Assembly (NCBI RefSeq): GCF_000948975.2
Contig: NZ_CP059735.1
Coordinates: forward strand, 4,710,603 to 4,774,602
Direction of reading: 5' to 3'
Origin: Thalassomonas actiniarum
GTDB lineage: Bacteria > Pseudomonadota > Gammaproteobacteria > Enterobacterales > Alteromonadaceae
DNA: 64,000 nt
Translations under genes and position numbers: made by a program
In this document: in pieces, positions 41,847 through 47,241 of the stretch
Layout: the number at the start of each line of letters is the position of its first letter
Position numbering within the stretch: the stretch's first letter is position 1
Notes under the pieces: model-generated
Told to the model about the DNA's origin: nothing
Seen by the model: the letters and a program-made list of their open reading frames with translations, nothing else
Database searches by the model: none

Positions 41847-41865
41847 GAAAACCTGAGCCTAAAAA

Positions 41866-41913
41866 CACTCTATAAAGCACTCTATAAAACACTCTATAAA
41901 ACACTCTATAAAA
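41866..41913. repeat. Four tandem copies of a 12-bp unit (CACTCTATAAAA)
   Basis: Units at 41866-41877 (last base G), 41878-41889, 41890-41901 and 41902-41913, the last three identical. Located in the 3' untranslated region of dapD right before the terminator. A simple tandem duplication; no spacers, so not CRISPR. Confidence 0.85.
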
Positions 41914-41937
41914 CAAAGGGCCATTTGGCCCTTTGTT
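41912..41937. terminator. Bidirectional terminator between dapD and truC
   Basis: AACAAAGGGCC and GGCCCTTTGTT form an 11-bp perfect stem with a 4-nt loop, followed by a T-rich stretch on the plus strand and TTTTATAG on the minus strand. Serves the convergent dapD and truC genes. Confidence 0.75.
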
Positions 41938-44413: not shown

Positions 44414-44722
44414 GTGTTAATCATGGAAAATATTTACTACTTATTATTGGCGTTTATGGTGTGCTGGTATTTTATCTACCTGAGAAAAGTATCTGAGTCC
44501 GCCAGAAAACACGCCGCCAGATATTGCGAGCAAAGCGGTTTGCAATTTATCGCTATCGCCCGAAAATTCAGCAGACCAAAATTTGATAAACAACACGGGT
44601 TATATTTCTCCAGTGTCTTTGAATTTGAGTTTAGCGGTGACGGCGAATCGAGCAATAGCGGAGAGTTAAGCTTAAGGGGCTTAAAGTTAAACCAGGTAGA
44701 TTTACCCGCCTACAGAATTTAA
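44414..44722 (+). CDS. DUF3301 family membrane-anchored protein
   Basis: 102 aa. One N-terminal transmembrane helix (about 6-20, Y-Y-L-L-L-A-F-M-V-C-W-Y-F) then a basic cytosolic tail with A-A-R-Y-C-E-Q-S-G-L-Q-F-I, the DUF3301 signature. The GTG at 44414 has AAGGG at good spacing; ATG at 44423 is the alternative. Follows DUF3549 by 31 nt. Function unknown. Confidence 0.8.
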   Translation: MLIMENIYYLLLAFMVCWYFIYLRKVSESARKHAARYCEQSGLQFIAIARKFSRPKFDKQHGLYFSSVFEFEFSGDGESSNSGELSLRGLKLNQVDLPAYRI

Positions 44723-44850: not shown

Positions 44851-45128
44851 TAAAACAAAAGCGGCCGATATGCCGCTTTTGTTTTTTAGCCAACATCCTG
44901 TAGCTGGTGGTGGTCGCCATCCTGATGACCTCTTCCCTGAAACATTAACTTCCCTGTTAACTCCCGGTACGTACCTCCCTGGCCAACTTTAAACTAAAAG
45001 TAAATTTCCTTATTCCTTATTAATAACCCTAGCCGTCCTATGCTGATTTCCTGTCTGGCTCAACCATCCAGTTGAGTGATTCATCACTGAATACTGCTTA
45101 AGTTTTCCTTCACTCGTGTCGTCCTGAC
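44851..45128 (-). ncRNA. csrC: CsrB/CsrC-family regulatory RNA, copy 1 (CsrA-sequestering sRNA)
   Basis: A minus-strand transcript of about 278 nt is predicted from G45128 to a strong terminator (AAAACAAAAGCGGC/GCCGCTTTTGTTTT, 44852-44885, 14-bp stem plus T-run). It carries about 14 GGA motifs in the forms CAGGAUG, CAGGGA, AGGACG and AAGGA. Several sit in loops of short hairpins, such as TCAAC-TGGATG-GTTGA and TTAAC-AGGGAA-GTTAA. This is the hallmark of CsrB/CsrC RNAs, which bind many CsrA dimers and free target mRNAs. No coding capacity. The csrC name follows its shorter length only. First bases GTCAGGACGACAC match copy 2. Confidence 0.88.
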
Positions 45129-45135
45129 AAACTTA

Positions 45136-45141
45136 ATATTA
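45136..45141 (-). promoter_or_regulatory. -10 element of Csr-type sRNA copy 1
   Basis: Minus-strand TAATAT, 7 nt before the predicted start G45128. No good -35 hexamer lies 16-18 nt upstream, as expected for an activator-dependent promoter. Confidence 0.6.
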
Positions 45142-45296
45142 CCAGCTGGATTATCCGCAACCAGCGCCAGAAGAAAAATAAATATTGGCGCTTACAGCCC
45201 AGATAAAAACCCAAAAGGAAAAAACCGATAAAAACAAAACACTAGAACAGGCATTTGCTTTTGCACCTAAAAAGCATTTCACTATGCCTACACCAT

Positions 45297-45314
45297 TGTA
45301 AGAAATTTCTTACA
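45297..45314. promoter_or_regulatory. UvrY/GacA binding palindrome upstream of sRNA copy 1
   Basis: TGTAAGAAATTTCTTACA is a perfect 18-bp palindrome and an exact match to the UvrY/GacA consensus TGTAAG-N6-CTTACA. Its centre is 177.5 nt upstream of the predicted sRNA start, and it also lies about 165 nt upstream of the divergent DUF805-like gene. Confidence 0.85.
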
Positions 45315-45479
45315 AAAAGCTTCTGCTTCTCCCCCAGGCCCGCATCTGTGTTGTTTATTGTTTAACCAAGTCAGCGATAAAATGATTTTTCTTTTGATTC
45401 TCCCCTGATTTTTGCCAGATTCACGCAGACACAGGTGCAAAAATTAGTTAATCTTGCGTTAATTTATTTTGGAGGTCTT

Positions 45480-46601
45480 GTGCAGCTATTAAAGTCGATT
45501 TTTTGTTTATCCGGATTTGATAATCGTCAGCGTTATGGCGCTATCTGCGGCATCAGTTATCTGAGTTTTATCCTGATGAGCGCGATACTCACCGGTTATA
45601 TGATCAGTTCAGCCATCGTTTTATTTATTGCTGTTATGGTTTGCGTATTCTCCACCAAGCGCCGTTTACAAGATGCCCGGCTCAATAAAAACTGGAGCGC
45701 CGCCCCCGGCGTTATTTTTGCCCTGACAGGTTTAGTGATTATTACCGTCAATCACGCCGGTGCCTATTGGCTGCTGCTTATTCCTATGGCGCTCTCGGCC
45801 CTGTTATTAACCTACCCCGGTAAACCCGAAAAAAGCTATCAACTAGGTTATAACGGCCCCGTTGATTTACATGGCTTTAGCCGGCCCCATAGCCGCAGCA
45901 GCCAGGGCAATAGCCGGATAGAGCCGACATTGACCGGTTCAACGGATGCTGAGCAGACAATAGCCATTGACAGCAGTGAACAGGTATTTCCCCCCTCAGA
46001 AGAAGCAGCTACGGCATCAGGAGAAAGTTTTAGCACAGCTTCAACGCAAGCAGATCCCGGCGAACAAATCCGCCTGTTGCTGCTTAATAAAAAAAATGCC
46101 CTCTATGCCGGAGGCGTAATACTCACTTTTATCATCACAGGTATCGTGATGTCTCTGTTCTTTTCTGGCGGCGATAGCCAGGCAGAAGTCTCAAGTGACG
46201 CCGCAGCTGTGCGGACGCAGGCACAACAGGATGAGAAATTACACCAGATTGATCTACCCGATAACTTCTCGTTACTGCTCAACCAATACCAGGGGGTGAT
46301 CATCAACTGGCAATCGGATAAAACCGAACAAACGCAAATATGGTCTGTAAAAACCGCTCAAGGTGACAGCAGCTGTGAGAGCATTACCTTCAATAACGGT
46401 GAGTCATACCGCACATATGGTGTTACTACAGAAATGGGAGATAACTATTTCGCCAGTTTCTCTCCCCTGGACACAAAAGCCCTGTTACAGGCAATAGCTT
46501 TTCGCGGTCACTTCCGTTTATGCGGCTATAAGTTTTCATTGAAGGGCAGCCAGGCGGTATTGGGGAAAAACAATCATTACGCCCAGTTTATTGACTATTA
46601 A
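45480..46601 (+). CDS. DUF805-like membrane protein of unknown function
   Basis: 373 aa from the GTG at 45480, chosen for the GGAGG four nt upstream; the longest frame begins at GTG 45435 with no ribosome-binding site. Residues 1-115 look like a DUF805 module: F-D-N-R-Q-R-Y, paired hydrophobic spans, R-R-L-Q-D-A-R, then two more spans. A Ser/Thr/Glu-rich linker (about 115-205) leads to a fifth span (about 208-230) and a C-terminal domain with two cysteines (S-S-C-E-S, R-L-C-G-Y). Placed between the two Csr-type RNAs, with the UvrY palindrome of copy 1 in its upstream region. Function unknown. Confidence 0.7.
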   Translation: MQLLKSIFCLSGFDNRQRYGAICGISYLSFILMSAILTGYMISSAIVLFIAVMVCVFSTKRRLQDARLNKNWSAAPGVIFALTGLVIITVNHAGAYWLLLIPMALSALLLTYPGKPEKSYQLGYNGPVDLHGFSRPHSRSSQGNSRIEPTLTGSTDAEQTIAIDSSEQVFPPSEEAATASGESFSTASTQADPGEQIRLLLLNKKNALYAGGVILTFIITGIVMSLFFSGGDSQAEVSSDAAAVRTQAQQDEKLHQIDLPDNFSLLLNQYQGVIINWQSDKTEQTQIWSVKTAQGDSSCESITFNNGESYRTYGVTTEMGDNYFASFSPLDTKALLQAIAFRGHFRLCGYKFSLKGSQAVLGKNNHYAQFIDY

Positions 46602-46720
46602 GCTATCTGGCTTATATCCTGGTGGCGGCAGGAACTAAAGTTTTCCGGGATGCTAAAAGCAAGCACTGAGCTTATGCCGGAAGCCCTGCCGGTAGCCCAA
46701 ACTGAAAAACGACCAGGCAT

Positions 46721-47054
46721 AAAAAAATGCGGCTCTATGAGCCGCATTTATTTAACTAGCTTAGTGCTTCCTGCACATATTTAGTGTTCCCACACTTTAT
46801 ATCCCTAAAATATCTATCCCTAGTATATTTTGATGAATCCCTTCATCCTCCTTAAGCCGTCCCGGGCAATATATCGTCCTGATATATTCACATTACTGTG
46901 TGTTCCCTGTGCTATCCATTTGCATCATCCTTAAGTTAACCGTCCTTGATCAACTCACTTCCCTGTTATATCTTCCTTTTGCGGATATCCGATCCACAAG
47001 ACATCATCCTTAATGCCTCCCTTTACAGAGTATCCTTCTCTGTGTCGTCCTGAC
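46721..47054 (-). ncRNA. csrB: CsrB-family regulatory RNA, copy 2 (CsrA-sequestering sRNA)
   Basis: A minus-strand transcript of about 334 nt is predicted from G47054 to a terminator AAATGCGGCTC/GAGCCGCATTT (46725-46749) plus seven T. It holds about 20 GGA motifs. Many sit in loops of perfect small stems: ACAGAG-AAGGATA-CTCTGT (47025-47043), ATATAT-CAGGACG-ATATAT (46869-46887), AGTGT-GGGA-ACACT (46783-46796), GTGC-AGGAA-GCAC (46764-46776). Size, motif density and end terminator match CsrB. It should titrate CsrA when the BarA-UvrY system is active. Open frames on either strand here are short and unsupported. Confidence 0.92.
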
Positions 47055-47223: not shown

Positions 47224-47241
47224 TGTAGGAGATGTCGCACA
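47224..47241. promoter_or_regulatory. UvrY/GacA-like box upstream of sRNA copy 2
   Basis: TGTAGGAGATGTCGCACA is a degenerate match to TGTAAG-N6-CTTACA that keeps the outer TGT/ACA and the central AT. Its centre is 178.5 nt upstream of the predicted start, the same distance as in copy 1, which supports the call despite the mismatches. The rest of 47063-47484 shows no gene. Confidence 0.6.

Follow-up and report, generated by a model that had tools for sequence, protein, structure and literature searches.

The minus strand of positions 44851-47054 contains two GGA-rich stretches, each of which ends in a terminator and begins with the same 13 bases. Copy A (46720..47054, minus strand) is predicted to be a CsrB-type small RNA of approximately 335 nt with 21 GGA motifs, and copy B (44852..45128, minus strand) is predicted to be a second CsrB/CsrC-type small RNA of approximately 277 nt with 13 GGA motifs. 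The spacing between them is 1.59 kb. The initial annotation had proposed two minus-strand transcripts of approximately 278 and 334 nt located 1.6 kb apart, and these lengths are right within a few nucleotides for the predicted transcripts. The identical start that it had reported for both copies is the motif GTCAGGACGACAC, which occupies positions 47042-47054 in A and 45116-45128 in B on the minus strand. When one degenerate position and up to one mismatch are allowed, this motif is found nowhere else in the window (the whole 64-kb stretch of DNA that was analysed), in which 0.03 matches are expected.

Copy A contains 21 GGA in the 336 nt counted, as compared with a mean of 12.1 in dinucleotide shuffles, and none of 2000 shuffles reaches this number. 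Copy B contains 13 GGA in 277 nt, with a shuffle mean of 8.0, and 20 of 2000 shuffles reach 13. The GGA richness described initially is therefore real, while the figures given for it, approximately 14 for B and 20 for A, are each off by one. Clusters of at least 11 GGA per 220 nt are present in the window only at A and B. No ORF of at least 80 codons overlaps either copy, and three short ORFs (44-52 codons) overlap them partly.

The genome is 7.49 Mb in size and consists of two contigs. When the start motif is searched for in the whole genome with up to two mismatches, 27 matches are obtained, as compared with 38 for a reversed-pattern control. Only four matches have zero or one mismatch, and these are A, B and two further copies, C and D. 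Copy C (C1:4532410) is unlinked to the pair, and copy D (C2:402479-402827; L002, L008) is located on the second, smaller contig. Four CsrB-like copies are known in this genome, and additional ones may exist. A relative of D is present in another genome of the same genus (L107 in G061).

Between A and B lies an ORF of 388 codons (45435..46601, plus strand), which is divergent from B and convergent with A, so that the two copies flank one protein gene as had been claimed. At the thresholds applied, neither Pfam nor NCBIfam has a family that matches this ORF. It is kept in relatives either with or without copy B; the genomes without room for B include, for example, G030, G027, G071, G001 and G008. 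Its first half appears hydrophobic by eye, and many of the examined relatives have it at the same position. The DUF3301 gene (44414..44722, plus strand) is convergent with B and marks the csrB locus jointly with the other neighbours: truC, yqcC and a DUF3549 gene lie on the same side of the RNAs as the DUF3301 gene, whereas a GNAT-like gene, a DUF3192 gene and syd lie on the opposite side. The names truC and yqcC are given from family and gene order. In E. coli K-12 (NC_000913), csrB is located between yqcC and syd. This agreement with the yqcC-csrB-syd neighbourhood of E. coli indicates that A and B sit at the old csrB locus. A 12-bp unit, AAAACACTCTAT, is repeated 4.5 times at positions 41862-41915, just past the 3' end of truC.

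Structure and Rfam scores of the two RNAs

Copy A folds far better than its shuffles, with a z-score of -5.8. The z-score of B is -2.4, and 3 of 200 shuffles fold equally well. When possible local hairpins are counted, 10 GGA are located in loops in A (shuffle mean 2.4; none of 500 shuffles reaches 10) and 7 in B (shuffle mean 2.0; 2 of 500 shuffles reach 7). The excess is weaker when looped GGA are expressed as a share of all GGA, because this share is reached by 5 (A) and 29 (B) of 500 shuffles. In the minimum free energy folds, 11 hairpin loops contain GGA in A, but only 3 in B. The earlier statement that several GGA motifs are located in hairpin loops is thus borne out by the local-hairpin counts, which exceed the approximately two expected by chance, less strongly for B than for A.

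Both copies begin with a hairpin, GTC-AGGAC-GAC, in which AGGA is located in the loop. It is located at 47044..47054 (minus strand) in A, as seen in the fold and the consensus structure, and at 45118..45128 (minus strand) in B, as seen in the sequence and the consensus structure. This 5' GTC-AGGA-GAC hairpin is conserved in both of the classes described below. At the 3' end of A, the last AGGA hairpin, GTGC-AGGAA-GCAC (46764..46776, minus strand), is followed by a linker containing AGCTAG (46750..46763, minus strand) and by an intrinsic terminator (46725..46749, minus strand), which appears in the fold, the terminator scan and the consensus structure. The outermost pair of the last AGGA hairpin is altered on both sides in 9 of the 20 A, C and D rows and is broken in 2. 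The terminator hairpin of B (44852..44885, minus strand) has the stem AAAAGCGGC and a T-rich 3' arm, as seen in the fold and the consensus structure, and both-sides pair changes are found at 3 of its pairs across 10 B rows. A simple terminator scan lists the terminator of A, but not that of B; nevertheless, the folds of both copies have a terminator hairpin at the 3' end, in agreement with the intrinsic terminators annotated at first. From the full alignments, RNAalifold recovers only the end hairpins, and the middle of the RNAs is judged too divergent to align.

At the gathering thresholds, no Rfam family matches anywhere in the window. The covariance-model check, which the initial annotation had named as telling against its proposal if the scores were below threshold, gives no above-threshold match for either copy. 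Copy A matches RF00018 (CsrB) over the whole model with 31.7 bits (E = 3e-7), short of the gathering threshold of 71, and B matches RF00084 (CsrC) weakly with 18.4 bits (E = 0.0012 in a search of 311 bases), short of the gathering threshold of 61, both E-values being obtained from searches of narrow stretches of a few hundred bases. In the genome search under RF00018, B is not among the matches with E <= 0.001, and it is also absent from the narrow-stretch listing, which omits lower-scoring matches of the same clan. When Rfam is searched in E-value mode over 2.4 kb, no CsrB match is obtained for A. This miss is taken as a filter effect, because the narrower stretch recovers the match. Over the whole of this genome, six RF00018 matches have E <= 0.001, namely A, C (66.2 bits), D (57 bits) and three repeat arrays. 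Across 79 genomes of the family, this one included, RF00018 gives matches in 22, and its cut-off is reached in 0 of 79, in a search whose filters lose some weak matches. This result indicates that the RF00018 cut-off is not a fair or informative test in this family; it also marks a gap in the coverage of this family by Rfam. Copies A and B are ordinary CsrB-type RNAs of a known kind that score below the Rfam thresholds. At the terminator hairpin of B, RF01408 (sraL) scores 31.2 bits on the plus strand and 25 bits on the minus strand, and its gathering threshold of 39 is not reached. The matches to sraL, L20 leader, lsy-6 and STnc250 were rejected, because they are matches to terminator hairpins.

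UvrY boxes and regulator genes

A palindrome resembling a UvrY/GacA box is located upstream of A at 47224..47241, where it starts at -187 and differs from the consensus at 3 of 12 positions. A perfect UvrY/GacA box, TGTAAGAAATTTCTTACA, is located upstream of B at 45297..45314 and starts at -186. The consensus used is TGTAAGN6CTTACA, as printed in PMC3171408, and box positions are counted from the presumed RNA start. They were determined for 37 RNAs from the csrB locus and its paralogues, from which GGA clusters with no clear RNA start (e.g. L100-L103, L105) were excluded. The best match to the consensus begins between -185 and -189 in 29 of the 37 RNAs (14 of 15 A, 8 of 10 B, 3 of 3 C, 2 of 2 D and 2 of 7 others), and a box within 2 mismatches of 12 is present in 12 of 15 A, 6 of 10 B, 3 of 3 C and 2 of 2 D copies. 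The three mismatches of the A box in the window are equalled by 36 of 200 shuffles, and two other Thalassomonas A copies are likewise 3 of 12 off. Therefore, it is the position of this palindrome, which is common to the orthologues, and not its letters, that argues for a box. In two B rows a box near -186 is missing, and in another two the box there has 3-4 mismatches, a level equalled by 60 and 171 of 200 shuffles.

Searches of the genome for the regulators recover a single CsrA gene (91.4 bits) and a UvrY match of 406 bits (cut-off 280). The TAG flagged in the UvrY match lies close to its end, where the gene itself stops, and the following frame reads like UvrC. The best match to the CsrD model in this genome (G000, C1:4685370-4687205; L184) scores 234 bits, below the cut-off of 663, and covers positions 15-629 of 633; it is possibly a divergent CsrD.

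Paralogues and the two classes of 3' ends

The nearest paralogues of A are the unlinked copies C and D. Sequence identities are 71% for A-C, 66% for A-D and 74% for C-D, as compared with 50% for A-B and 47% for both B-C and B-D. The 3' ends are divided in the same manner. The sequence AGCTAG follows the last AGGA hairpin, ahead of the terminator, in 20 of 20 A, C and D rows and in 0 of 10 B rows; a terminator stem of the form [AG]TGCG[GA] is present in 19 of the former, the exception being A_G008, and AAAAGCG[GA]C is present in 10 of 10 B rows. Copy B of the window is 96% and 90% identical to the B copies of two other Thalassomonas genomes.

In the tree, from which the single-copy rows O_G067, O_G023, O_G031, O_G011 and O_G018 were left out, the A, C and D copies of Thalassomonas form one group (93/82), and the Thalassomonas B copies are placed apart on a long branch. 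The B rows do not form one clade in the best tree, but a single B clade is not rejected (p-AU 0.256). Weak rejection (p-AU 0.0475) is obtained for a single clade of A, C and D; the reason is the row O_G046, which shares the AGCTAG 3' end and is placed within the A copies. The greater closeness of A to C and D than to B, together with the class-specific 3' ends, suggests that the unlinked copies are younger duplicates of A and that the linked pair is older. By position, copy A is the orthologue of the one csrB that related genera usually have. The best explanation for B is that it represents a separate class of greater age that several genera have retained at this locus, and the best explanation for C and D is that they descend from the A class. 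These results separate two CsrB classes by distinct 3' ends, and add a group of CsrB RNAs that is missed by the Rfam thresholds in this family. They also suggest that proximity on the chromosome does not tell reliably which copies are young, because here it is the linked pair that looks old and the dispersed copies that look recent.

Age, function and related systems

The csrB strand was examined in 48 family neighbourhoods: of 79 genomes searched, 76 besides the present one have a marker of the locus, and 47 of these were used along with the window. Two GGA clusters are found in 9 of them, one in 18 and none in 21, in a sample that was picked non-randomly by marker score and RF00018 matches and in which a few neighbourhoods stop early at a contig end. 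The opposite strand of the same neighbourhoods contains one cluster in total. The nine neighbourhoods with two clusters are those of three Thalassomonas genomes and of G034, G076, G066, G021, G039 and G025. Among 20 wider neighbourhoods, drawn from the 68 of 119 genomes with this marker, two clusters are found in 3, one in 5 and none in 10, and in the remaining 2 the marker was not recovered on re-search by tblastn. The three with two clusters are all of the f6 genomes fetched (L169, L170 and L175), which belong to another family and could be Shewanella. One extra two-cluster neighbourhood (L165) is obtained at a looser cut-off of 10 GGA. No ORF of more than 45 codons is located between the two RNAs of L169 or L170, and two (L169) and one (L170) UvrY boxes are found within 1 mismatch.

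The local duplication and divergence proposed in the initial annotation is unsupported as stated. A recent tandem duplication in this lineage, followed by divergence, would account for the adjacency of A and B on the same strand and for their identical first 13 bases, and the test of Thalassomonas A and B as one clade does not reject it (p-AU 0.199). However, the identity of A to B (50%) is lower than its identity to the unlinked copies C (71%) and D (66%), both positions are occupied in the six two-cluster genomes of other genera named above, and the 3' ends are class-specific, with AGCTAG in all 20 A, C and D rows and in none of 10 B rows. Such a recent event is therefore highly unlikely, and the pairing looks old. 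It may or may not go back, as far as the sequences tell, to one old tandem duplication. That the arrangement with two csrB copies is ancestral to several families and was cut to one copy in many of them, rather than gained repeatedly, has somewhat less than an even chance. It is favoured by the two GGA clusters at the locus in all three f6 genomes fetched and, for L169 and L170, by the boxes and the lack of a longer ORF between the RNAs. It is disfavoured by the family counts (9 with two, 18 with one and 21 with none), by the parallel duplication of csrB published for vibrios (PMC6262261), and by the lack of a firm grouping of Thalassomonas B with the other B rows in a tree built without f6 copies. 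This ancestral history is compatible with B being an older class and C and D descending from A, since it concerns the history of the arrangement only.

As to identity, copy B might be a small RNA of another kind or a decayed csrB rather than a CsrA decoy, as its weak Rfam score and the few GGA loops in its own fold would allow. This is unlikely, because B has a perfect UvrY box at -186 and a kept 5' AGGA hairpin, its terminator has both-sides pair changes at 3 pairs, and it is 96% and 90% identical to the other Thalassomonas B copies. That A and B are GGA-rich intergenic repeat elements instead of RNA genes is barely credible. Arrays of this kind, which score on RF00018 (L004-L006), do occur in this genome, but neither A nor B shows a tandem array, and the box position, conserved start, terminator and locus argue against it. 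The CsrB/CsrC-type identity proposed initially is thus supported strongly for A and well for B by the GGA loops, the position of the UvrY box and the csrB locus.

We are therefore highly confident that A and B are CsrA-sequestering CsrB/Rsm small RNAs, switched by UvrY and located at the ancestral csrB locus, with B representing an older class and C and D derived from A. The direct basis of this assignment is sequence, structure potential, box position, locus, the relations among paralogues and orthologues and the presence of csrA and uvrY; by analogy, we infer transcription, CsrA binding and UvrY control. Phosphorylated UvrY would bind the palindrome approximately 186 nt upstream of each RNA and would thereby switch on the transcription of A and B, in line with the UvrY control described for CsrB1/CsrB2 of Shewanella oneidensis (PMC3171408). 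The many GGA sites of each RNA, several of them in hairpin loops, would then titrate CsrA dimers away from mRNAs, as E. coli CsrB does (PMC5027483). Both A and B very probably soak up CsrA.

E. coli CsrB shares with the Thalassomonas RNAs the truC-yqcC-csrB-syd order on one strand, and has a UvrY box at -191 and 22 GGA in 369 nt. In contrast, E. coli has one copy at this locus, which differs in sequence and passes the Rfam cut-off, whereas A and B are below it. Alteromonas macleodii presumably belongs to the same GTDB family as Thalassomonas. Its Aln1a-c are described as three CsrB-like RNAs or start sites in one 404-bp intergenic region (PMC5864184), and are likened to A and B by description. 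The csrB1 and csrB2 genes of S. oneidensis are linked and flank one gene (PMC3171408). Like A and B, these RNAs are located in adjacent intergenic regions around that gene with a UvrY box each, and they are described as separate transcripts that both depend on UvrY. Unlike in Thalassomonas, where a conserved 388-codon ORF is located between RNAs of approximately 335 and 277 nt, the gene between them is a transposase gene, and the RNAs are approximately 420 nt long (PMC3171408). By description, A and B can also be likened to Pf1-Pf3 of Pseudoalteromonas fuliginea, which are several Csr RNAs with many GGA (PMC11882849). Binding of CsrA is demonstrated for Pf2 and Pf3, a partial match to Pf3 is reported in a Thalassotalea, and, unlike the linked A and B, Pf2 and Pf3 are located at separate loci (PMC11882849). 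Vibrio tasmaniensis has four csrB copies, and in Aliivibrio salmonicida csrB3 adjoins csrB2 through duplication (PMC6262261); these are likewise likened by description. A review terms Csr/Rsm siblings 'distal' (PMC4211561). No paper joining Thalassomonas with CsrB was found in the open-licence library searched, and the csrB locus is not mentioned in the available part of PMC5471319, which concerns Colwellia and CsrB.

In E. coli CsrB, the required cleavage by RNase E occurs in an unstructured segment that separates the terminator from the last CsrA site (PMC5027483), and the cleavage site is shielded by CsrA and opened by CsrD. The AGCTAG linker of A, C and D occupies the position of this site, although the linker sequence of E. 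coli is different. The invariance of this linker in A, C and D, and its absence from B, is mildly novel. A rather doubtful extension, made by analogy, is that A and B differ in turnover, A being under a CsrD-type control of decay and B not, with AGCTAG as a putative RNase E site. If so, one locus would provide a fast and a slow CsrA decoy, kept through genus-level divergence. The conserved linker makes it possible to test directly whether differing decay is what preserves sibling Csr RNAs.

The RF00018 matches L004-L006 were rejected as small RNA genes, because their sequences are tandem arrays. Intergenic arrays of this genome consist of units of approximately 50-59 bp with GGA in short palindromes (CATGGACGAACAGGAATGA-like), and three of them score weakly on RF00018. 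They are located in G000 at C1:4558421-4558698 (L004/L009), C1:5694081-5694285 (L005/L010), C1:1025578-1025790 (L006/L011), C1:4231489-4231714 (L155) and C1:2881863 (L152, one unit), and are probably palindromic repeat elements. Four of these five places are located between convergent frames (ORFs of at least 100 codons).
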